Below are positions 503-40,147 of a DNA stretch of 60,589 bases, in pieces; the first letter of the stretch is position 1; the number at the start of each line of letters is the position of its first letter. Source of the stretch: a virus; the IMG/VR virus record IMGVR_UViG_3300033151_000729, positions 1 through 60,589 of that record, one strand, 5' to 3'. A program made the position numbers and the translations under genes. The notes under the pieces were generated by a model. That model searched no databases and was not told the origin of the DNA. It worked only from the letters and a program-made list of their open reading frames with translations.

Positions 503-3500
503 ATGCCAATTAATAAAAAGAAAAAAACATTCCTTCCGCAGCAGCCCATCCAGCCGATAAGGACTTTTGCGCCTCTTCCGGCAGGCTCACAGGAGGGTTT
601 AGCCTCTGAGCGGGCATACGAACAGGTGTACGCCGCCACCTTGCCTCAGCCCATCCAGCCGATAAGGACTGAGCAGCCGCAGTTTGCGCCACCTCAGCAA
701 CCTGAGCGAACTTTTGGCGGCACTCTTCGGGATATTGGAGTAACGGCATTAAAAGGAGCTGTTGCTCTGCCCCAAGCAGCTCAAGGGCTGATCGACATTC
801 CCACAGGTGGCCACTTTGGCAAGTTAACCGAGCGATTAGGGTACAAACCTGAAGAAACTCAAAGGATCCTTGCGGGCCAGTTATCCCCAGCTCAGCAGTA
901 CGCCGAACAGCAAGTTTCCGAAGCAAAAGGCTTTGTTCCCACACTCAAGGCAGCATTACAGCATCCGTCAACTATTGCCAGAGCTGCGGCTGAATCAGCC
1001 CCCCTGATGGTAGCTGGCGGCGCAGCAGGTCGAGGTATCACAGCATTAGCCCCACGGATCGCCCCAGTTATTGCAGGGGCGATGGGAGAAGGTTTGGTTT
1101 CTGCTGGACTTGTAGCTGAAGACATCCGGGGCCAAACAGACAACAAATTACTCTCTCCTGCCCAGTCAGCCATTGCCTTGACCGCTGGTATAGGTACAGG
1201 TATTTTCAGCGCAGCGGGTGGGCGGGTAGCTGGTAAACTCGGCATTGCTGACGTCGATACCTTGCTTGTGGGCTCGCCCCTCAAGAAACCATCAAATGTA
1301 GCCAAGGCCATTGTTTACGGCGGCGTATCCGAAGGGCTGTTTGAAGAAATGCCCCAAGAAATGCAGGAGCAAGTCTGGAAGAACGCTGCTACCGGAAAGG
1401 ATCTTATGGACGGCGTACCAGAATCTGCCGCCCAAGCGGTACTAACAGGTGGCCTGATGGGTGCCGGGGCAAATGTTGCGGGTGGGTTACTCCCGCAACC
1501 ACAACTACCCCCACCCGGCCCAACACAAAGAGCAGCCGAAGGAGCCCAACCGATCCAACCTGACCAAGCTCCAGGCGTAACCATTGAGCCAGAAGGATTT
1601 TCCACACAGCTACAGGCTGATGCTGCCGATGCCTTTGACCAAGCTCGTTTTGCCGTCCAACAGGGCCAGATCCAGCCGGGAACTGAGGAGTTTCAGGTGG
1701 TAAAAGAAAGTATTGAGGACATTCAGCAGCGGAATGTCCCTGAAGAACAGGAAGCCTTGAAGAAAAACAAAGATGTGGTTGATTTTTTTACTCAGCCCCA
1801 GCAAGCCCCGCCAAGTACTGTTGAATCGGCTATACAGCGAGGTGTTCGGGCTGCTGGCGTGGAGCCTATCCTTGATGAGGCACTGGCCCGGCCTGTTACG
1901 GCACCAGGGGTAGAGCAACCAGCTACCACGCTACCCAAAACAGAGCAGGTAACAGCTGAGCCTACACCCAGGGCCACCGCCATTGACGTAATGAAAAGAG
2001 ATATGGCCGAAGGCGAAGCAGGATACCGGTTCCAAAAAGATGCACCAGTTGAAGCCGGATATGATCCAGATTCAGGAAAATTTGAGGGCGTGAAGTCAAC
2101 TAATCCTGAATGGATGAAGCAAGACGAACTTCTCCAAAAAGCTGGTAAAAAACGAATCAACCGGGTGCTTGAACTCTCCGAGCAAGGTAAAAAGCTTACC
2201 CCTATCCAATCTGACATCAAAGCTCGTCTTGATAAAGCCGCTGACTGGGTCACTGAAAACGATCCGGGAATGGTTGCCGGACAGCAGGCTAAAACCCTAC
2301 AAGAGGAAGGTTTTGACCTTGGTAAAGACGAAACCATTACAGCGGGTGAGCTTGCTCCTGGTGATGAAATAGTTATTACCGACGATACCGGAATGCCGGA
2401 CAAGCTGACTCACAAAGGTTTTGACGAAGAAGGAAACGCCATTTTACAGGATGGTAAAAAGATTACAGTTGACTCTTTCGAACAGATTGAAACCATTGGT
2501 AAAAAAATAAAAGCTGACCCTGAATTACAAAAAGACGTAACTGATTTTGTGACTCGTATAAATGAAAATACTGATCCGGTAAATATCCAGAGCATGATCA
2601 GCGAAATCCCCGAAGCTACCAAAGGGAAACTGGCTCCTTATCGAGAGATGCTGCAAGGCGTGCTGGAGAGGCGTGCTGCCGAACTTGACGGAGCGCAAAC
2701 CGTCGAAGGAGAAGGTAAAAAAGAATTAGGCACACGGGTGCTCAAAGAGGGGTTAAGTGTCGAAGGCGAACGAACATACCTGAAAGACTTTACTCCAAAG
2801 GAATTTCAAGAAGAGTTTCGCAACCCAAAAGAAATGCCCCGCTTGACGGACAGTTCTGAATACAAGAAAATTCTTCCGAAAAATACTGAAAAAATTGTAT
2901 CTGAAGCTGCTACGATAAAACAAAACTTAAATAATGCTAAAGCTTCTGTTAAGGAGAGTAAACAGCACCTTGTAAAGCTCTTTGATAAGGAAGGTCAGGC
3001 AGAAATAGAAGTCCAGTTTGAAGGCCGACCATACACCATTAAAAAACCCGAAGTAGGTGCAGAAGTAATCATCCTTAATCAAAAAGGTGATGATGCTACC
3101 GAAGCCCTTAAGGCCAAATTTAAGGCTGAAGGCCAAATGGAGTACGATCCTAAGCCCGGCAAAAGGTCTCTATCTATCCAGCCCGTAAAAGTTGGAAAAA
3201 GCCACGCATCGCAATACGGGCCAAAGACGTTGCTTCAAGCAGCTACGGAACATGTTAAGTTAAGTTCGGAACAATACCAATACAGCATTGAAGAAAAGGT
3301 TATAAAAGCCGAAATGCTTGCTGAATTGGTCGACAACCTGAAAGATAAGGGGGTGGGGCACACCTGGCGGAACGAGGCTGGAGATACGAGCTTTAGCGTA
3401 AAGAGAGCCCCTGCGGCGAAAGTATTCGCATCCAAGGAAGCAAAAGCAGAGTATGGAAAAAAATACAAAGAGCTGAAGGAAAAACCCGAGTTTGTGAAAA

Positions 3501-6500
3501 AAGTTAAACCTGGGGAGCTGAAAACGGCTGGGGTTACTCCTGCACAAGCTGGAGGAATCAAGGGCAAAGGCTCCAGAGCTAAGGCGGCAGAGCTGAAAGC
3601 CCGTGTCCAAGCAGAGATTGCCGAACGAGTTAAGCTGTCAAAAGCAGCTGGCGTATTGCCCAAGGCTGGGCAGGCCAACATCCTTGACGAGCTTAACGAG
3701 AGCCTTGGGCAACTGGTTGTCCAAAAGCTTCAGCAGGGCAAGGCTTTTGAACTGGTTAGTAATGAACAAGCCTTGTCCGCAGTCAAAAAAGATGCTGAAG
3801 CAGAGGCAAAGTATTCCAAAGATGGCCAACGAATCGAAGGGCTTACTTTTCCAGATGGTAAGGTTTGGCTGGTCAAGGAGAATATAGCTAAAGGTCAAGC
3901 ACTTACTGTGCTTACCCATGAACTCGGTGTCCATGCTCGCAAGCTTGGTTTTAATGATGGCAAAGTATTTAAGCGAATACTTAAACAGCTCGAGAGTCGC
4001 CTTGGAGCAGGAACAGACAGCGACATCAATGCGGCTTTTGCCAAAGTGCCCGACAGCACCCCCGCTGAACAGGTCACAGAAGAGGGGTTGGCCCGGCTTG
4101 CATCGATGTCTCCTGAGCATGGCTTAATTCGAAAGCTTTTTGCTGCCATAAAGCAATTCTTGATCAATAAGGGATTCTTTCCGAAATACTTTACCAGCAG
4201 ACTGACAACTGCTGATCTTCAGGTGCTGGCTCAGAGTGCTATCAAGGCTGATACTAAGCCCAGGAAACAGAAAACGGATACCAAGGTTAAGTTTTCTCTT
4301 GCCGACCTACCAAAGACCCCCGAAGCCATTCAGCAGCGGTTGAATAATACCGAGAACCTGAACGCCACCGCTCCAGGCGGAACCACTTCGGGGGCAACGC
4401 CGGAGCAGGGCAAGTCCTACATGGCTAGGGTGAGCAAAGCTGTCGGTGAAGCGGTCAGTAAAGTTACAGCAGAGAAGCAAGCCGAAATCAAAAAAGAACG
4501 GGAACTTATCGGGGCTTATTATAAGCTGAAGGCTGTATCTAGAAGCCCAGTAGCATCCATAAAAAAGAAGCAAGAAACTCTTGAGGCATTTCAAGGACTA
4601 GTGCCAGAAGGAGTTCAGGACGTTTTAGCACAAGCACTGAGTATTATTTCCAATCCGAAAGCAGGACTTGAGCGGCAAAAACGAGCGTTTGAAAAGGTAA
4701 AAGGCACCTTGCTTGAAGCCACAAAAGCGGATCTTGACAAAACAATCCGCAGCAACCAACTACCGAGAGTCAAACCTGAACTGAGACAGGGTAAAAGGGG
4801 TAAAAACCTCAAAGCTGACATGGAGCTGATCCGCAAAGCTAAACAAATGGATCGAGGGGCAGTCCTTGACCGACAAGAAGCCCTTGATAAGAAAATTGAC
4901 CGATCAAAGGAAATAATCGGCAGTCCTCAGTCAAGCAAAGAGGGCATTGCTCAAGCCGAAGAAAATCTTGCGGATTATTACTCTGAAAAGCAATTACTCA
5001 CGGTTTTTGGAGATTTTGGCAAGTTGTCATACGCTGAAATCCTCCGTGCTAAAGAAGCTGTTAACGACCTGGTAACAAGCGGTACCGGCGCCTGGCGAGT
5101 TATTCAAGACCAGCGCAATGCACTCAACAATAAGAACGCCTTGATGGTTCGACAGGAAGTCCAAGGTAAACAGGATCCAAAAGATTACTCTCGGGCCGAA
5201 ATGAGTCAGGTTGCCGAGAAAGAAAAAACGGTGACAGGCAGGGCCAAGAAGCTCGTTACTGATGTAGAAAATTCCAACATGATCCTTGGGTTCTACCTGA
5301 ACAAAATTGCGGGGAAATCAGGCAAAGGAATGCTTCAGAGTGATACCGTGAAGCTGTTTGAGGGCATTGCTGCTTGGGGAACAAGACGCGAAGAACAGTT
5401 AAAATTGTCCATCGTCGAGAACACTATTAAGACCAAAGCAGCCGAGGTGTTTGGCTCTGGCAAGAAACTGATGGCCGCCATGGCTCGAATGGCTGAAGTC
5501 TCGACAGATAAGGTCTACAGTTATTCCCAGACCGGGCAAAAGAAAGAACCTTTCCACATTGGTCCTGGTCAAGCGATATATCTCAGGCAGCTAAGTAATT
5601 TTGACGAGGCTCAATCTGGACTGGATGCCATGGGCGTGACTGAGGAAACCCTCAAAGATATAGAAAATTACCTCAGCCCTGAAGAAAAACAGTGGGGAGA
5701 CTGGCAGCAGCAGGAATTTTACCCCAAGCTTCAAGCAGATACCGGGAAAGTCATTCAGAATGTCGAAGGAATCAGCATCCTGAACAACCCGAACGAAGTA
5801 CCCTTACACAGGGAAACAGGCGGTCTTGATATTGGTGTTCAGCGCACCAGGCAGGCAGGATTGAAGCACGGAACTAGTTCGGAAATAGAAAAAGAGGACC
5901 AGCCTTTCCGCCTTATGGATGCCGACCAAGTTATGATGGATCATATGAAGGGTATGACCCATTACCAGGCGTGGGCTGGGCCGATGGGGATTATCACAGG
6001 CACGTTCAATGATCCCCAAGTTCAGTCTAGCATCATTGCCGAATACGGTAAAAACACCATGGACGGGCTAAAGCTCTTCTTTAGAGACATGGCTGAAGTT
6101 CCAGGCGGCACCACCTTCGCTTGGGCCGACAAAGCCCGTGCCAACGTGACTACCGCCTTGCTTGGTGGCTCCTTGATCACCCCTGTCAAGCAGCTGGCCA
6201 GTATTCCAGCAATGTCCGCAGATATTCCTTCTGCTGCTTTTGCTAAAAATTTTACATACGGCGTGGCTCACCCTAGAGAAGTGCGGGAATTTGTAAAAAA
6301 CTGGGATTTCATAGACCGGCGCATGAAACTGGGCTTTGAGCGAGACATGAAAATTGCCAAAACCAAGCAGACCAAAGCTGTTATTGCTGGTAGTAAGAAT
6401 ATTGCAGACTGGATGATGACCCCTATCGGTATTGGTGATGCTGCTGGCGTGATTGGTGGTAGTTTCCCGGTCTTTAAGTACCACAAAGACCAAGGGAAAA

Positions 6501-16537: not shown

Positions 16538-17317
16538 TTATTGCGCTGTTGCAAGAGCGAAGAGCTCCATGAAGGTATCTTCAAACCAGTGCGGTTGGGT
16601 ATGGGTAGGATGACCTCGGTAAGCATCGTTCTGTCCGTATTTTAGGCCTTTTTCTGTAATAGATTTGTAAGGCCTCGTCTCGCCCTTTGATCCTAATCGG
16701 GTCTTTGGCTCAAGGTATCCTATATTGACCAAGAGCTTGTTGAACGCTATTGATGACATACCGCAATTGTTCTTTTCGAGCAGGTCTTTCGCTGGACAAG
16801 GAACCCTGACTTTTTCAGTAAACTGCGGCAGCGCCCTGGTTGGAACTCCATTACCACTGTACACTTCGTGAATACCCACCAATAAACTATTTTCGGAAAA
16901 CTTCATCATCTTTGAAACGTGATCCAGCCCGACAAGTTCCATCTTGAATGCCCTTATCTCTACGTCCTCAACAACTGGAACCAGCCCGCCCTTTCCGATC
17001 TTCTCCCACTTGATGAAGTAGAGCCGGGCTTCTTTGCCTCTGACGGTATGTTCCATCATTGAAAGTTCTTTTGCGGTGTCTAAGGTTATGGCGTAGTCGA
17101 TGCGATTGTGACCGCCGCTGCCGGTTTGCTCAACATCTATGTTGAGCAAAATATAGTCCTGTCCTTCCGTGAAAAAAGGACTGTCGATAACCTTATGCTT
17201 CATCCAGTTGGAGAAATCCCGCTTGCTCTCAAGATAAGCGTGGAGCTGTCGGGCATCAGTAGCGGGAATTTGTTCACCTTGAAAGGTTCTCTGCTTGACG
17301 GGAATTAATTCTTGCAT
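16538..17317 (-). CDS. antA: AntA/AntB-type antirepressor (259 aa)
   Basis: Residues about 20-115 fit the AntA domain: DARQLHAYLESKRDFSNWMK, FFTEGQDYILL, then GGHNRIDYAITLDTAKELSM and ARLYFIKWE. The C-terminal part (about 170-255) resembles the second domain of phage antirepressors (CGMSSIAFNKLLVNIGYLE, then KGLKYGQN). Such proteins typically counteract a phage repressor or rewire host and phage transcription. Two oddities: a perfect 12-2-12 inverted repeat lies inside the gene at 17125-17150, and the leader upstream is shared with the KilA-N gene at 39277. Start is ATG 17317 with TTGGAGTT. Confidence 0.85.
   Translation of the reverse strand: MQELIPVKQRTFQGEQIPATDARQLHAYLESKRDFSNWMKHKVIDSPFFTEGQDYILLNIDVEQTGSGGHNRIDYAITLDTAKELSMMEHTVRGKEARLYFIKWEKIGKGGLVPVVEDVEIRAFKMELVGLDHVSKMMKFSENSLLVGIHEVYSGNGVPTRALPQFTEKVRVPCPAKDLLEKNNCGMSSIAFNKLLVNIGYLEPKTRLGSKGETRPYKSITEKGLKYGQNDAYRGHPTHTQPHWFEDTFMELFALATAQ
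17125..17150. repeat. Intragenic perfect palindrome in antA (12-2-12)
   Basis: TTTGCTCAACAT, two bases, ATGTTGAGCAAA. It encodes residues just after the GQDY segment of the AntA domain. See the matching elements in rha (27030-27056) and kilA-N (39448-39474). Confidence 0.95.
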
Positions 17318-17330
17318 CGTGGAACTCCAA

Positions 17331-17456
17331 ATAAAAAAAGGGTTTTACCGACATCTGTCCTGAAAGTGAGGTACGTAAGAACCCCGAACAGATGAACGAT
17401 AAAACCCTTTAATCAAAACTATTTGTTACGTTTTCCCGGCCTTTCAAACCGCTCCC
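17331..17456 (-). promoter_or_regulatory. Structured leader with terminator-like hairpin before antA
   Basis: Read leftward, AAAGGGTTTTA (17410-17400) pairs with TAAAACCCTTT (17347-17337) and is followed by a T-run directly before the TTGGAGTT ribosome site. Inside it, ATCTGT (17393-17388) pairs with ACAGAT (17358-17353), and the loop holds a CGGGGTT and a CCTCACTTT block. The whole element, including about 45 bases upstream (GGGAGCGGTTT, AGGCCGGGAAAA), recurs before the KilA-N gene at 39136-39267. This looks like a transcription attenuator or a small terminated RNA. Confidence 0.8.
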
Positions 17457-17526
17457 CACGTCAATGGGTATGGCTAGACCTTAGCCTCTTTTTGCTGGCT
17501 TGGCAATAAAAAACCTCACAGGCTCC

Positions 17527-18849
17527 CTAAAAGTCAATATTATTTGCATCGTTATAAATAAAAGTTTGTTCTTTAGGCATTTTACTCTCGATAATAGGAA
17601 TAAGCCGTTTTGTCTCATTCAAATCCCCTTTAGAGCGCTGAAGTAGTCCGCCAATATCACACCCACGGATAGGTTTTGTAAACCCATCTGTATGGCAAAA
17701 ATCTTTTATCCTGTCCTCTAACCAAGGATTGACCGTTTCGGGTTTAATCCTTGGTAACTTAATCACATAGTCAGTCCGTCCTGGTCTCATTATAGCCGGA
17801 TCTAAGTCATCTAGGTAGTTTGTTGTCAAGATTATTACATGACCGTTAAGCGGAACTGAACCGTTTAGTACATTCAGGAATTCAGACAACTGAATAGACA
17901 GCGTGAATGCTGTGTCGTTATCGCTTTTGTTGCTATCTCCCACCTCGGTATCCTTTAATAATTGACGTTGTTTGGTTGACGTGAAAGCACTTACTGAGTG
18001 TATATCCTCCAGTATGTGTACCTGGTCAGTATCAACCAACGCTTGTTGAAAGTCACCGGCAGATGATAAACCAGCAGCATTGATATTGTTGACATCTTTT
18101 TCAAGGTAGGCAGCTATGGCCGGTATTAATTTTGACTTTCCGTTCCCCGGCTCACCATGCAGCATGATAACAAGTTTATCTGGAATGCCTAGAGATCTAT
18201 TAGCTTTCTTATTGTCCTTAAACGTATCAAGAATACGTTTAATACAAGCTCTGGTGTCGTTATCCAAGCAAACTTGATCCAATGTTTGAGTGGTCATTGT
18301 CCCTATATAAACCTTACTAACATCATAGCTAAAAAAGGACATGCCGAAAGGAGGTCTTGGCCTCTCTAATGTTCTCAAGAAATTATCTAGCACCTCCCTG
18401 GTAAAACCAAAACACCCTATAGTAATGCGCTGTTTTTGATTTGAAACCCCTGCACTATCCAAGTCAGATATCGTGTACCATATCAGATTTTTATCATATA
18501 GAAAGAAATGGGAGCCTATACCGCTGATTGCAATAAAGGCGTTAGTAAATTTGTGGCTGCGCTTATCGTTGTATCCTACTGAAAAGTCCCTTGAACCAAT
18601 ATCTCCAGCGTGTTTTTGTAATTCGACAAGTAGTGGGCAATACGCTTCATGTGCGTTTTCTACCGTTAAAGTCAAGGTGATGCGCCTTTTAATAGCGTTA
18701 TATATACCATTTGGTACTGACCTCCCTATGTAGGCTATCAAACCAAAGCCACCGGCCACAATTGCGCCACCTACAAACTCGTTCGAACCTGATATACTGT
18801 TTGCCCACTCTATAAAAACAGTAGGCACCTTGGTTATAAGTTCAAGCAT
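17527..18849 (-). CDS. BCS1-like AAA+ ATPase with N-terminal membrane helix (440 aa)
   Basis: A hydrophobic helix near residues 25-43 (FVGGAIVAGGFGLIAYIG) precedes a BCS1-specific middle region and an AAA+ domain: Walker A GEPGNGKS (232-239), Walker B ILEDI (279-283), then the BCS1 signature VLNGSVPLNGHVIILTTN and LDPAIMRPGRTDYVI. BCS1 proteins use ATP to remodel or translocate folded substrates at a membrane. In a phage this could remodel a host or phage membrane protein; the substrate is unknown. The start chosen is ATG 18849, which has GGGAGGAAT at ideal spacing and overlaps the upstream stop; an ATG at 18870 lacks such a site. Confidence 0.85.
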   Translation of the reverse strand: MLELITKVPTVFIEWANSISGSNEFVGGAIVAGGFGLIAYIGRSVPNGIYNAIKRRITLTLTVENAHEAYCPLLVELQKHAGDIGSRDFSVGYNDKRSHKFTNAFIAISGIGSHFFLYDKNLIWYTISDLDSAGVSNQKQRITIGCFGFTREVLDNFLRTLERPRPPFGMSFFSYDVSKVYIGTMTTQTLDQVCLDNDTRACIKRILDTFKDNKKANRSLGIPDKLVIMLHGEPGNGKSKLIPAIAAYLEKDVNNINAAGLSSAGDFQQALVDTDQVHILEDIHSVSAFTSTKQRQLLKDTEVGDSNKSDNDTAFTLSIQLSEFLNVLNGSVPLNGHVIILTTNYLDDLDPAIMRPGRTDYVIKLPRIKPETVNPWLEDRIKDFCHTDGFTKPIRGCDIGGLLQRSKGDLNETKRLIPIIESKMPKEQTFIYNDANNIDF

Positions 18850-19135
18850 CTTTATTCCTCCCAGCATCAACCGCTTCCCTCAACCCCTTCCCCACCTTAA
18901 AGACCGGGAGCTTCTTAGCCCCAACCTTAATCTTTTCCTCGGTCTTAGGATTGCGACCAATATAAGCATCATAACTTTTAACGGCGAAGCTGCCGAATCC
19001 ACGGATTTCAATACCGTTACCTTCTTCCAGGGTCTGAGCCATGATATCCAGGATCGTTTGCACCACGGCGGCTGTTTCCTTCTCCGGGCGGCTAGTTTGT
19101 TCGGCCATCTTTTCTGTTAATTCTGATTTATTCAT
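18842..19135 (-). CDS. HU/IHF-family DNA-binding protein (97 aa)
   Basis: Full-length HU/IHF fold: N-terminal helices (MNKSELTEKMAEQTSRP), GFGSFAV strand signature and the GRNPKTEEKI arm that intercalates into DNA. Together with the related gene at 19419-19721 it could form a phage-encoded heterodimer that bends DNA, organises the genome or supports replication or packaging. Coupled to the zinc-finger gene and to the BCS1-like gene by overlaps. Confidence 0.92.
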   Translation of the reverse strand: MNKSELTEKMAEQTSRPEKETAAVVQTILDIMAQTLEEGNGIEIRGFGSFAVKSYDAYIGRNPKTEEKIKVGAKKLPVFKVGKGLREAVDAGRNKDA

Positions 19136-19428
19136 TTTTTCCTCTTGGCTATAATTTCACGATCTAGATCGGCAGGATCAACCTCAAACTTTTCAAGCAG
19201 AAACTCAACCCGCTGGGAATCCGATACTGAATCACCACTGCAAAAAGGGCAGTGCTTGCTTTCTACTTCCCCTTCTATTGTGACCTCATCAATATAAGGA
19301 TGGTCAGGCAGCTTTGCGGTTATGCAGTTAGAACACAGCATATTCCCACATTTTTCACATGACGCTATGCACTTTTCGTATACTCCTGACCGGTCACAAT
19401 TGTCGCAATCATAATGGTCTACCGGCAT
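19132..19428 (-). CDS. Zinc-finger protein between the two HU/IHF genes (98 aa)
   Basis: Contains CDNCDRSGVYEKCIASCEKC...CSNC and a later CPFC, enough cysteines for two to three zinc sites of a B-box or RING-like cross-brace. Overlaps both neighbours, so the three proteins are likely made together. May modulate the HU/IHF pair or bind host proteins; unknown. Confidence 0.7.
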   Translation of the reverse strand: MPVDHYDCDNCDRSGVYEKCIASCEKCGNMLCSNCITAKLPDHPYIDEVTIEGEVESKHCPFCSGDSVSDSQRVEFLLEKFEVDPADLDREIIAKRKK

Positions 19429-19721
19429 TTTTTCACCTCATTAAACCGCCCCCGCAAAATCCCCGAAGGCTTAAAGGTAACCACCCTCCGAGCGTCTAGA
19501 ATCAGATCTTCCCCGGTTTGAGGATTTCGCCCCTTCCTGGGAGCCTTATCCTTCACGCTAAATTTACCAAAACCACTCAAGAGGAGATCGTCCCCGCTGA
19601 TCAGGGCCTCTTTTGCCGTGGTCAGGAAAACTTCCACGGCTGCCATAGACTGGGATCTAGTCAAGTGGGGGTGATTCTTGTAGATAGCCTGATCTAGATT
19701 TGATTTTGTTAATGTGGCCAT
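19419..19721 (-). CDS. IHF/HU-family DNA-binding protein (100 aa)
   Basis: IHF-alpha-like features: LTKSNLDQAIYKNHPHLTRSQS helix region, LLLSGFGKFSV, and the DNA-intercalating arm APRKGRNPQTGEDL, ending RRVVTFKPSGILRGRFN. Distinct from the second copy at 18842-19135, which fits an alpha/beta pair. Start overlaps the upstream stop by one base. Confidence 0.92.
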   Translation of the reverse strand: MATLTKSNLDQAIYKNHPHLTRSQSMAAVEVFLTTAKEALISGDDLLLSGFGKFSVKDKAPRKGRNPQTGEDLILDARRVVTFKPSGILRGRFNEVKKCR

Positions 19722-26625: not shown

Positions 26626-26679
26626 ACATTGGCCAGAGCTGGCCGGATTGATCGGGCTGATAATCTCAGCCATTTTTGA

Positions 26680-26725
26680 ACTAAAAAGCCGGACTCCAAA
26701 GAGCCACCGGCCACGGGAACGAACT
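26680..26725 (+). repeat. Direct repeat flanking rha, upstream copy
   Basis: About 46 bases starting ACTAAAAAGCCGGACTCCAA that recur almost exactly at 27588-27632, where they encode the C-terminus of Rha. Here the copy is non-coding, which suggests a remnant of a former rha-like 3' end. Confidence 0.9.
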
Positions 26726-26763
26726 GGATCTTAATTCTTAATCATCGCTGCTAACCGTAGTTG

Positions 26764-26903: not shown

Positions 26904-27650
26904 ATGGAATTGGTAATAGCAAAAAGCGGCAGCGTATTTTGCGACAGCAAGATGGTTGCGAAAAAATTCAACATGAAACATGCATACGTGGTGCGTACCA
27001 TTATTCAAGTGGCGGATGATATTTCAGACATCAGGGTGATTGGTTATCACCCTGATTTTTTCCCTGAAAAACGTGAATATCAGGGGCAGGATTACACTGC
27101 CTACCTGATGAACAGGGATTTCTTTTCGGCGTTGGTAATGAGGTTCAGAGGCAAGGGTGCCCTGAAATGGCAGCTTACTTTTATAGCAGCGTTTAACGCT
27201 ATGGAACAGCGTCTACTCCTTGGTACCACCAACAAGACTGACCAGCAGTGGATTGGGCAGCGTGAGCAAAGTAAGTTGGCCAGAAAAGAAGAAACGGACG
27301 TGATTAAGGAATTCGTTGAATACGCAACTGAGCAAGGGAGCAAATCGGCTAAATTTTACTATAAACATATCACTAACGCTGCATACAAAGCGCTGGATCT
27401 AATGGCAGCTAAAAAGCCAAAGCTTAGGGATACTCTCGACCTATATCAGCTTGCAGAGTTAACCTTGATAGAGAGGGAAGCAAGAGCGAAACTGAAGCTA
27501 TACATGGATCTTGGTCGCCACTACAAGGATATTTATTCATCCGTTAAGGATGATCTTCTCAGATATGGATCTGGGCTGCGCCTTGAAACTAAAAAGCCGG
27601 ACTCCAAAGAGCCCGGCCACGGGAGCGAGCTGAAGGGAGTCAGGTCGTAA
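26904..27650 (+). CDS. rha: Rha-family phage regulatory protein (248 aa)
   Basis: The N-terminal domain fits Rha: VFCDSKMVAKKFNMKHAYVV, RTIIQVADDI, then the DYTAYLMNRDFFSALVMRFRG...LKWQLTFIAAFNAME signature. The C-terminal half is helical and charged and ends with the repeated DNA that also lies upstream of the gene. Rha proteins regulate temperate-phage growth and can block it in IHF-deficient hosts; this phage brings its own IHF/HU-like proteins. A perfect 11-5-11 inverted repeat is embedded at 27030-27056. Confidence 0.85.
   Translation: MELVIAKSGSVFCDSKMVAKKFNMKHAYVVRTIIQVADDISDIRVIGYHPDFFPEKREYQGQDYTAYLMNRDFFSALVMRFRGKGALKWQLTFIAAFNAMEQRLLLGTTNKTDQQWIGQREQSKLARKEETDVIKEFVEYATEQGSKSAKFYYKHITNAAYKALDLMAAKKPKLRDTLDLYQLAELTLIEREARAKLKLYMDLGRHYKDIYSSVKDDLLRYGSGLRLETKKPDSKEPGHGSELKGVRS
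27030..27056. repeat. Intragenic perfect palindrome in rha (11-5-11)
   Basis: ATCAGGGTGAT, TGGTT, ATCACCCTGAT. It encodes the junction (DIRVIGYHPDFF) between the N-terminal part and the NRDFF core of Rha. Confidence 0.95.
27588..27632 (+). repeat. Direct repeat flanking rha, downstream copy
   Basis: Partner of 26680-26725, here encoding TKKPDSKEPGHGSEL at the Rha C-terminus. The pair brackets the rha promoter and gene as a cassette. Confidence 0.9.
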
Positions 27651-29209: not shown

Positions 29210-29421
29210 AGCGCATCAAAGCCAATATCCTCGGCCATAGAGCAAAAGAATTCCATATCCGCATCGACCTTCACAGGCACCTCCCCGCCGTCCTGATTAT
29301 GCATAATCACACCCAGCTCTCCTTTTTCGCCCATGGCAAAAATTTGATCATCATAGGCCACCCTCCCGCCATTGCACAGTATCTGCATCAGGAGCTCTTG
29401 GGGCTTTCTTAATTTCGGCAT
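29164..29421 (-). CDS. Hypothetical protein (85 aa)
   Basis: Alpha/beta sequence, beginning MPKLRKPQELLMQILCNGGR. Overlaps neighbours at both ends. Function unknown. Confidence 0.6.
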   Translation of the reverse strand: MPKLRKPQELLMQILCNGGRVAYDDQIFAMGEKGELGVIMHNQDGGEVPVKVDADMEFFCSMAEDIGFDALWLQICAGKINRSVT

Positions 29422-30050: not shown

Positions 30051-30320
30051 ATGGATCACAAAGAATTCTTAAGCAAAATAGGGAAATCAAGGTCCCCTAA
30101 AAAACTAGCCGCCATCAGGGAAAACTGCAAAAAGCCGAGATTCTCCAGGCGGGCGATACTGACCCATCTAGACGGCCTACTTGACGAGCTAGAGGATTTC
30201 GAAGGCATGACCCCGGCAGAAGTCAAGGAACAAGGCAAGGCGACAAACGAGGCTTACGGCAGATGGTCTGCGCTTAGTTCGCTAATGGGCGATATCAAAA
30301 ACAACAGAATCAAGAGGTGA
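30051..30320 (+). CDS. Hypothetical helical protein (89 aa)
   Basis: GGGAGCAGC precedes ATG 30051. Basic N-terminal half (KIGKSRSPKKLAAIRENCKK), then acidic helix. First gene of the ssb-containing unit. No family recognised. Confidence 0.6.
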   Translation: MDHKEFLSKIGKSRSPKKLAAIRENCKKPRFSRRAILTHLDGLLDELEDFEGMTPAEVKEQGKATNEAYGRWSALSSLMGDIKNNRIKR

Positions 30321-30322
30321 TC

Positions 30323-30706
30323 ATGTTCCGAGATATAAAGGCAGGGGATACCGTGCTTGTCAAGTCGTCACTGTGGGTAACCACGTTTAAAGTTGAAACA
30401 TTCTGGCTACCAGCGACCGTAACCAGAACCACAGAGACGCAGTTCCTGGTCGGTAACGACAGGCACCGCAAGAGCAACGGAAGCATGGTTGGCGGCAAGC
30501 CTTACGACCGTTGCTACCTGGAAAACGAGGAGCACAAGGATGAGTCCGAGAAGTACAAAAAGAGGAAGGAGGATGTGGAAAACCGTTACGAAATCACAAA
30601 CCACCTCAGCCATATAAAGGAGATAGATTTTCTAAATCATCCGCATCAACATGCGGTGATCGCCTTGATGAAGCAAATTTTAACGCTTAAACCAAAGGAG
30701 AAGTAA
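30323..30706 (+). CDS. Hypothetical protein (127 aa)
   Basis: ATG 30323 with AGAGG five bases upstream; a GTG at 30317 is an alternative. N-terminal beta-rich stretch (DIKAGDTVLVKSSLW) and helical, charged C-terminal half. Followed directly by the 44-aa gene. Confidence 0.6.
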   Translation: MFRDIKAGDTVLVKSSLWVTTFKVETFWLPATVTRTTETQFLVGNDRHRKSNGSMVGGKPYDRCYLENEEHKDESEKYKKRKEDVENRYEITNHLSHIKEIDFLNHPHQHAVIALMKQILTLKPKEK

Positions 30707-38713: not shown

Positions 38714-38896
38714 ATGAGTAAAAAAGCATATTACATAAGTCCAGTAATTGATGAGCTTCACTCCAATTTGTCCGACGAGTCACTGCGGCGGATCGGGTTT
38801 CCGGTTGGGCGGCGGGTTGCTATCCCTGTGCGGCGTGTTAAGGTTGAGAAAAAAGGGAAGGTCAAGGGAATTAAACAGCTTACTCTGTGGGGCTGA
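38714..38896 (+). CDS. Small basic protein (60 aa)
   Basis: ATG 38714 with GGAGGCATT. Basic C-terminal half (VGRRVAIPVRRVKVEKKGKV), perhaps nucleic-acid binding. Last gene before the non-coding island. Confidence 0.6.
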   Translation: MSKKAYYISPVIDELHSNLSDESLRRIGFPVGRRVAIPVRRVKVEKKGKVKGIKQLTLWG

Positions 38897-38902
38897 ATGG
38901 CC

Positions 38903-38931
38903 TTGACAAACCAGAGCGAATCAAATAACAT
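38903..38931 (+). promoter_or_regulatory. Strong promoter of the non-coding island
   Basis: TTGACA 38903-38908, 17 bases, TAACAT 38926-38931. There is no coding frame for the next 345 bases, so it most likely drives the structured RNA described next. Confidence 0.8.
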
Positions 38932-38937
38932 AGATAG

Positions 38938-39083
38938 GCGTGAGGGGGGAGCTGTTGATAGTCTTGGTTGGTCATCTTGATGTTCTCGGCAGCTGTCCCC
39001 TGAAGCAGGAGAGTGTAGCTCAAATGGATAGAGCGGCCATGCGGATGGTGCGTGCAGGTTCGAGTCCTGCTGCTCTTTGTTTT
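38938..39083 (+). ncRNA. Putative structured RNA ending in a tRNA-like fold
   Basis: Starts just downstream of the promoter. A 5' hairpin pairs GGGG and AGCTG with CAGCT and CCCC (about 38946-39001). A tRNA-like domain follows at 39009-39078, then TTTGTTTTG. No protein is encoded. Possible roles are a modified or defective tRNA, a decoy for tRNA-handling enzymes, or a signal for processing by RNase P. All are inference. Confidence 0.6.
39009..39078 (+). tRNA. tRNA-like element with shortened anticodon arm
   Basis: Acceptor GAGAGTG/TGCTCTT (7 pairs, three of them G-U), D arm GCTC...GAGC with GG in the loop, and a textbook T arm GCAGG-TTCGAGT-CCTGC. The anticodon arm GCCAT-GCGG-ATGGT closes on only 4 bases, so no normal 7-base anticodon loop is possible, and no CCA is encoded. 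It may be a pseudo-tRNA or a deliberate mimic rather than a decoding tRNA. Confidence 0.6.
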
Positions 39084-39135
39084 GATTGACTTTCCGGCTT
39101 GTGGTGGTTATGGTCTGTTCATCCTGCTTGATGGC

Positions 39136-39267
39136 GGGAGCGGTTTTCATAGGCCGGGAAAAGTACAAAAGCAGTTTTGATTAAAGGGTTTTATCGCTTA
39201 TCTGTTCGGGGTTTAGTACGCCTCACTTTGAAGTTCAGATTGCGGTAAAACCCTTTTTTTATTGGAG
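39136..39267 (+). promoter_or_regulatory. Structured leader before kilA-N (second copy)
   Basis: Same element as 17331-17456. AAAGGGTTTTA (39183-39193) pairs with TAAAACCCTTT (39246-39256), followed by T and then GGAG (39264-39267). ATCTG (39200-39204) pairs with CAGAT (39236-39240). Loop blocks CGGGGTT and CCTCACTTT are conserved between copies while the surrounding bases drift, which suggests a selected RNA structure. Confidence 0.8.
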
Positions 39268-39276
39268 TTTTACGAA

Positions 39277-39951
39277 ATGAGCAAGAAGTACGAAGTAGCC
39301 ACCATTAATGATACTAAGATTACGATTGATATATCATTACTGGCAAGCGACAAGCTGTTCTTCAATGCTACTGAGATTGCGAAGCAGTTTAATAGGCGGC
39401 CAGCCGATTTTTGGAAGCAAGAACAAAACCGTGAATATCTGTCAATTCTCGTTACCCTCTCAGAGGGTAACGAGGAAGACTTTGTTTTTACAAAGAAAGG
39501 TGGAAAATATCAGGGTACGTGGCTCCATAAAGATCTGGCTATTCAGTTCTCAAGATGGTTGAGCCCTGAGCTAGCGATACGTCTTGACAGGTGGACAGTA
39601 GAACGACTCGCCCAAGAGCGAAGCTATAAAAAAGAACGCTTAGAAGCAAAAACCGGGTACCTGCCCATGTCTAATGCTGTTCTTCGTGCTCATGACAGTG
39701 TCAAATTCTACCATTTCAGCAATGAAGCAAACATGATTAACCATATCATGTTCGGGATGTCTGCTTCTAAATTTCGAGAAAAGCACGAGGTGCCGAACGT
39801 TAGGGATGCCCTTGACGCTGCTCAATTGAAAGAGATAGCCCGGCTCCAGATGATCAACACCGGCTTGATTGAGGTGGGTATGGAGTACGAGGAGCGTAAA
39901 ACGAAGCTGACTATTTGTCACGCTGAGGGGTTGAAGAGGCTGGAGAGGTGA
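39277..39951 (+). CDS. KilA-N domain protein (224 aa)
   Basis: KilA-N DNA-binding domain at about 20-115: LFFNATEIAKQFNRRPADFW, then GGKYQGTWLHKDLAIQFSRW and LSPELAIRLDRW. C-terminal region is helical (about 130-224) and may bind a partner. Start is ATG 39277 with GGAG; a TTG at 39262 would lie too close to the ribosome site. Antirepressor-like regulator. A perfect 13-1-13 palindrome lies within the gene. Confidence 0.85.
   Translation: MSKKYEVATINDTKITIDISLLASDKLFFNATEIAKQFNRRPADFWKQEQNREYLSILVTLSEGNEEDFVFTKKGGKYQGTWLHKDLAIQFSRWLSPELAIRLDRWTVERLAQERSYKKERLEAKTGYLPMSNAVLRAHDSVKFYHFSNEANMINHIMFGMSASKFREKHEVPNVRDALDAAQLKEIARLQMINTGLIEVGMEYEERKTKLTICHAEGLKRLER
39448..39474. repeat. Intragenic perfect palindrome in kilA-N (13-1-13)
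   Basis: CTCGTTACCCTCT, C, AGAGGGTAACGAG. It encodes LVTLSEGNE between the W..E and GGKYQGTW segments of the domain. Confidence 0.95.
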
Positions 39952-39955
39952 CTCA

Positions 39956-40147
39956 ATGCAAAAAATGACCCCAAAGGATAAAGCAGCAGTCTTCATGTTG
40001 GCCCGAAAGTTACTCCGGGTAGGGAGCACTAAGCGTGCTGCGCTCCATCTGAAGCGTTCGAGGATCTTTGCTGACACGCTTCCACGGGCTTCTATTGTGG
40101 CTCTTTCGACTTCTGTATTTCACAGGGAGCAGAATACATTGCAATAA
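39956..40147 (+). CDS. Small basic protein (63 aa)
   Basis: GAGAGGTGACTC before ATG 39956. Basic helix (KDKAAVFMLARKLLRVGSTKR). Coupled to kilA-N by closeness and followed by two terminators. Confidence 0.55.
   Translation: MQKMTPKDKAAVFMLARKLLRVGSTKRAALHLKRSRIFADTLPRASIVALSTSVFHREQNTLQ

Follow-up and report, generated by a model that had tools for sequence, protein, structure and literature searches.

A transcription attenuator-like leader upstream of two unrelated antirepressor-type genes in a phage genome

RNA control of antirepressor genes in described phages

Antirepressors must be silent in the lysogen and fast when they are needed, and known phages solve the silencing with upstream RNAs (isrK-C4 and sar). 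IsrK RNA has its own promoter and ends at an intrinsic terminator, and read-through leads to the anrP transcript; a trans effect of the short IsrK RNA on the long isrK transcript is also possible (PMC4825925). The C4 antisense RNA (RF01695) and its a1b1 target (RF03163) in P1/P7 provide RNA control of antirepressors from a position directly upstream. In P22, the small sar RNA (RF00262) controls an antirepressor by antisense pairing with ant mRNA (review PMC12197685).

We surveyed about 110 loci with AntA and KilA-N genes. AntA genes were found behind RNAs of the isrK / C4 / sRNA-Xcc1 group in L043, L046, L053, L085, L094 and L099, with C4 directly before AntA in L043, L085 and L099 and near AntA in L046. 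The L085 prophage carries two isrK-C4 leaders, one before AntA (2756-2942(+)) and one before Bro-N (5488-5669(-)); hence it is not unprecedented for the same leader to stand, on opposite strands, before antirepressors of two kinds. A further leader with a C4-like layout and no Rfam match was observed about 200 bases before the KilA-N gene of L012 (start near 4990); GGAGCTTCGAA lies close to the leader's 5' end, and its complement TTCGAAGCTCC follows downstream.

The leader reported here is new in sequence and known in role and layout, and so far it is found in two related phages. Judged from its sequence, it shares with isrK (RF01394; Gifsy-1 and relatives, before anrP) a terminator layout upstream of an antirepressor gene, and like isrK in L085 it precedes two different antirepressors. 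In isrK loci, however, C4 RNA or orf45 lies between the terminator and the gene, whereas the terminator of our leaders abuts the ribosome-binding site. Similarly to C4, the leader lies directly upstream of its gene; like sar, it is proposed to control an antirepressor, but sar is an antisense RNA and the present one would be a sense leader. No Rfam family matched the leader, sar included. The isrK covariance model gave no match to it even at E up to 10, while the same library found isrK in L085 and L099, and the C4 and a1b1 models did not match it either, with L043, L046, L085 and L099 as positive controls. A search of the phage genome for C4-type complementarity of the loops to an antirepressor ribosome-binding site gave no outstanding duplex.

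Two copies of one leader and their anatomy

The window, i.e., the whole stretch of 60,589 bases that was analysed, is the virus record of the phage. Since it has a 114-bp direct end repeat, it is probably a complete circular genome. The phage looks temperate and tailed, and its other genes include terminase large and small subunits, portal, a DnaB-like helicase, a single-strand annealing protein and an exonuclease. Three antirepressor or regulator genes were found: antA, kilA-N and a Rha-type gene (26904-27650(+)). A 48-bp direct repeat (92%; 26679-26726 and 27587-27632) flanks the start and end regions of the Rha-type gene, and two closely spaced genes for HU-type DNA-binding proteins (18842-19135(-) and 19419-19721(-)) lie upstream of an AAA ATPase gene and antA.

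The two leader copies, 17317-17464(-) and 39128-39275(+), are 82.2% identical over 152 columns (E 4e-30) and form the strongest internal repeat of the genome, the end repeat aside. They directly precede antA and kilA-N in the same orientation relative to the gene, on opposite strands, and no BLASTP similarity was found between the AntA and KilA-N proteins. The sequence-only reading had proposed just this, the same leader before two unrelated antirepressor genes, and the comparison confirmed it; its repeat length of about 130 bases was corrected to about 150 bp, with a promoter-like block farther upstream. The copies differ at 35 of 147 columns and their identity is patchy: the longest stretches without a mismatch measure 24, 18, 14 and 12 (permutation p about 0.0015). 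A third candidate at 29421(-) was rejected, as its hairpin lies inside a coding sequence and does not align to the leaders. The features of the two copies are as follows.

16538-17317, minus strand: antA antirepressor gene (Pfam AntA PF08346, E 8e-20)
17325-17328, minus strand: ribosome-binding site GGAG of antA, from sequence
17333-17339, minus strand: T-run of the antA leader, from sequence; 3 nt overlap with the stem base
17337-17410, minus strand: predicted terminator hairpin of the antA leader; closing stem of 14 bp, ATCTG/CAGAT, conserved loop blocks
17437-17451, minus strand: 5' hairpin 2 (CGGUU..GGCCG) of the antA leader, predicted in both copies; stem invariant
17453-17470, minus strand: predicted 5' hairpin 1 of the antA leader; compensatory pair changes relative to the kilA-N copy
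17478-17506, minus strand: promoter-like TTGCCA-17-TAAGGT of the antA leader; weak (8/12), aligns with the kilA-N copy, 98% conserved in the sister phage
39086-39114, plus strand: promoter-like TTGACT-17-TATGGT of the kilA-N leader (9/12)
39122-39139, plus strand: 5' hairpin 1 of the kilA-N leader, from the fold and comparison with the antA copy
39141-39156, plus strand: 5' hairpin 2 of the kilA-N leader; present in the predicted folds of both copies, with an unchanged stem
39183-39256, plus strand: predicted terminator hairpin of the kilA-N leader; closing stem of 15 bp in the fold
39254-39260, plus strand: T-run of the kilA-N leader, from sequence
39264-39267, plus strand: ribosome-binding site GGAG of kilA-N, from sequence
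39277-39951, plus strand: kilA-N antirepressor-type gene (Pfam KilA-N PF04383, E 8e-16)

Each leader thus reads, in the direction of the gene, promoter-like pair, hairpin 1, hairpin 2, unpaired stretch, long hairpin, T-run and GGAG. The promoter-like pairs sit at matching positions in the two copies and their -10 elements are weak; the antA promoter is putative, since its element fell under the threshold of the promoter scan. Placed by these blocks, the expected 5' end of the RNA would coincide with the beginning of hairpin 1 in both copies. The long hairpin closes an apical domain of about 45 nt with the loop blocks CTGTTCGGGGTT and CCTCACTTT in both leaders. Its closing stem, first read as 11 bp, is longer in each copy, and the motifs reported with it (ATCTG/CAGAT, CGGGGTT and CCTCACTTT) were all found and are identical in the two leaders. 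The hairpin cores have predicted energies of -35.2 and -30.9 kcal/mol (z -7.3 and -6.0), and none of 200 shuffles was as good. A T-run adjoining the ribosome site was present as described: it consists of 7 T, the first three in the stem, and GGAG follows 5 nt on from the last T in antA (spacer 4) and 4 nt on in kilA-N (spacer 3). From these elements, both leaders have the stable stem and T-run between putative promoter and gene expected of an intrinsic terminator or attenuator.

An open frame ending in ...GRE....SFD* right at the stem was found in both copies. It could represent a leader peptide whose stop codon, GATTAAAGGG, lies at the terminator base, where a stalled ribosome would open the stem. 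We consider this ribosome-mediated attenuation scarcely credible, because no start codon or ribosome site is common to the copies, the four middle residues all differ, and a frame this long often arises by chance.

Among 819 gene starts scanned in the surveyed loci, a strong hairpin with a T-run within 45 nt was found in 10, and five of these were judged genuine: the two window copies, the antA leader of the sister phage, and the AntA leaders of L049 and L050. All five lie before antirepressor genes, a result biased by the choice of loci around such genes, and they fall into two sequence-unrelated families. The remaining matches were rejected, being in coding sequence or ordinary terminators before a doubtful TTG start. 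The L049 leader (IMG/VR 3300028218_000171; also in L050) has a promoter-like element and a 62-nt terminator hairpin with its T-run 19 nt before the start codon. Its terminator-against-RBS layout is that of our leaders, while its sequence is unrelated and the covariance model R1 gave no match to it.

Conservation in a sister phage and search for further copies

A sister phage (IMG/VR 3300033148_005420, here G001; 59,460 bp) aligns with the window in blocks of about 73-97%; a search with the portal protein brought up no further relatives. The antA leader is 98.4% identical between the two phages over 193 bases, whereas the antA ORF reaches 69.2% and the sequence ahead of the leader about 42%. 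The leader is therefore a sharply bounded conserved island, which ends at the antA start. This island is the best evidence, at the sequence level, for the leader as a functional unit, and recent exchange between the sister phages could contribute to it.

The kilA-N copy of the leader is absent from the sister phage, where a different ORF occupies the same place between the same flanks, indicating that leader and kilA-N form one replaceable unit. The cassette spans about 38896-40147 and contains a second promoter-like element, a degenerate tRNA, the leader, kilA-N and a 63-aa ORF. This second element (TTGACA-17-TAACAT, 38903-38931(+)) is stronger than the leader's own, and the degenerate tRNA-like gene (39008-39079(+); Rfam E 1e-4), which has no proper anticodon, lies directly upstream of the leader promoter. 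An inverted repeat, GGGGAGCTG/CAGCTGTCCCC, was also observed upstream of the tRNA-like gene.

Between the antA and kilA-N copies, two pairs of hairpin 1 change on both sides and remain paired (C-G to G-C and A-U to C-G), and a third is altered in one partner only. These compensatory changes are suggestive of an RNA fold; the covariation score was reached by 64 of 500 shuffles, and covariation is confined to this one helix because only three copies are available, two of them nearly identical. The long closing stem gives no covariation since it is invariant between the window copies, i.e., its sequence is kept and not just its pairing. Such conservation of the arms would also fit a role at the DNA level, as an operator bound by a phage repressor or antirepressor, in place of an RNA structure. 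We regard an operator as very unlikely, since its half-sites showed no convincing enrichment elsewhere, and a T-run at the correct end followed immediately by the ribosome-binding site fits a terminator.

Further copies before AntA or KilA-N genes, whose absence the sequence-only reading had named as one part of its refutation, were found once, as the antA leader of the sister phage, and none appeared beyond it in viral, phage, plasmid and genome collections, which may omit records very near the window. A blastn search of phages and plasmids with the leader returned nothing. Pattern scans of viral contigs recovered the sister phage copy only, the rest being chance or unrelated matches when checked with R1. 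In genome contigs, the strict leader pattern gave nothing, and 16 matches to the stem pattern were rejected because their contents and context were unlike the leader. R1 found nothing in 369 genomes of one class, a weak negative because little can be concluded from an empty result in that survey. Among 88 AntA/KilA-N loci it gave no credible match (a single hit, A+T-rich and 41 nt long, had E 0.02).

Two loci picked by the stem pattern carry a leader of about 97 nt with a hairpin and T8 before a Phg_2220_C-type gene (L020 5013-5109(-) and L021 1931-2027(+)). A strong promoter-like element lies directly ahead, and TTGGCCG at the 5' end of the RNA is the complement of CGGCCAA in the loop. They were rejected as relatives of our leader, their weak R1 score not being independent evidence because the stem pattern had selected both. 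L020 and L049 raised the possibility that the 5' part pairs with the loop, and such pairing was not significant for the two window copies.

Proposed attenuation and its possible trigger

We propose that the leader is probably a self-contained transcription attenuator of the antirepressor gene behind it, which gives a terminated RNA by default and expresses the antirepressor upon read-through. RNA polymerase would start at the leader's own promoter and transcribe about 140 nt, comprising the two small 5' hairpins and then the long terminator hairpin, and would stop at the T-run, a few nucleotides short of the ribosome site. The default product would be a short structured RNA and hence no antirepressor; AntA or KilA-N would be produced only when polymerase reads through. 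Since a strong stop signal lies right at the ribosome site, antA and kilA-N are probably off by default. The experimentally studied IsrK layout can work in this way (PMC4825925), which supports the proposal. An attenuator or terminated small RNA, one of the options first suggested from the letters, fits the promoter-like block, the 5' structure, the terminator abutting the ribosome-binding site and the sister-phage conservation. Another of them, a metabolite-type RNA switch, lost support because no mutually exclusive anti-terminator fold is common to both copies: folds without the terminator stem were 20-25 kcal/mol weaker and differed between the copies.

The terminator could, on the other hand, simply end an upstream transcription unit and have been copied with the promoter, with no regulatory role; in the antA copy, transcripts coming from the upstream AAA/HU operon would likewise end at the hairpin. 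This explanation is unlikely, as the hairpin sits downstream of the leader's own promoter-like block, a plain terminator needs neither the 5' hairpins nor the apical sequence that both leaders keep, and conservation of the leader, at 98%, exceeds the 69% of the gene.

A base-pairing role is possible but doubtful. Modelled on the short IsrK acting on the long isrK transcript, or on C4 acting on its targets, either the terminated leader RNA itself or a partner RNA would pair through CTGTTCGGGGTT and CCTCACTTT as the contact site, and one RNA would set both genes. Neither the loop blocks nor the two stem arms differ between copies that vary elsewhere, and pairing alone would allow compensatory change; CCTCACTTT looks by sequence like an anti-Shine-Dalgarno stretch, and trans action is known for IsrK (PMC4825925). 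Against this, no complementary site outside the leaders stands out in either phage genome, the best duplexes forming a continuous background. The earlier suggestion that one RNA controls both genes keeps its basis in loops conserved beyond the needs of pairing, and the search of the two phages brought out no prominent complementary RNA to complete it. Base pairing is compatible with the attenuator, for which it would provide the trigger.

A sequence-unrelated leader with the known layout before two unrelated antirepressors suggests that phages have found this solution on more than one occasion, with the RNA module, a compact switch, moving independently of the type of antirepressor protein. 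We tentatively raise a further idea, to which we give rather low confidence: the leaders may belong to an undescribed phage RNA family that acts as a portable control module for antirepressors of different fold, with loops read by a shared trans-acting RNA or protein. If so, the two antirepressors would be released together. Possible triggers of the attenuator are a partner RNA from the host or another phage, a loop-binding protein, and a phage or host antitermination factor. A weak Phage_ProQ_C_like match below the cut-off (E 2e-4) was observed in the window at 30317-30706(+); it may encode an RNA-binding protein, which could be a candidate partner of the leader.
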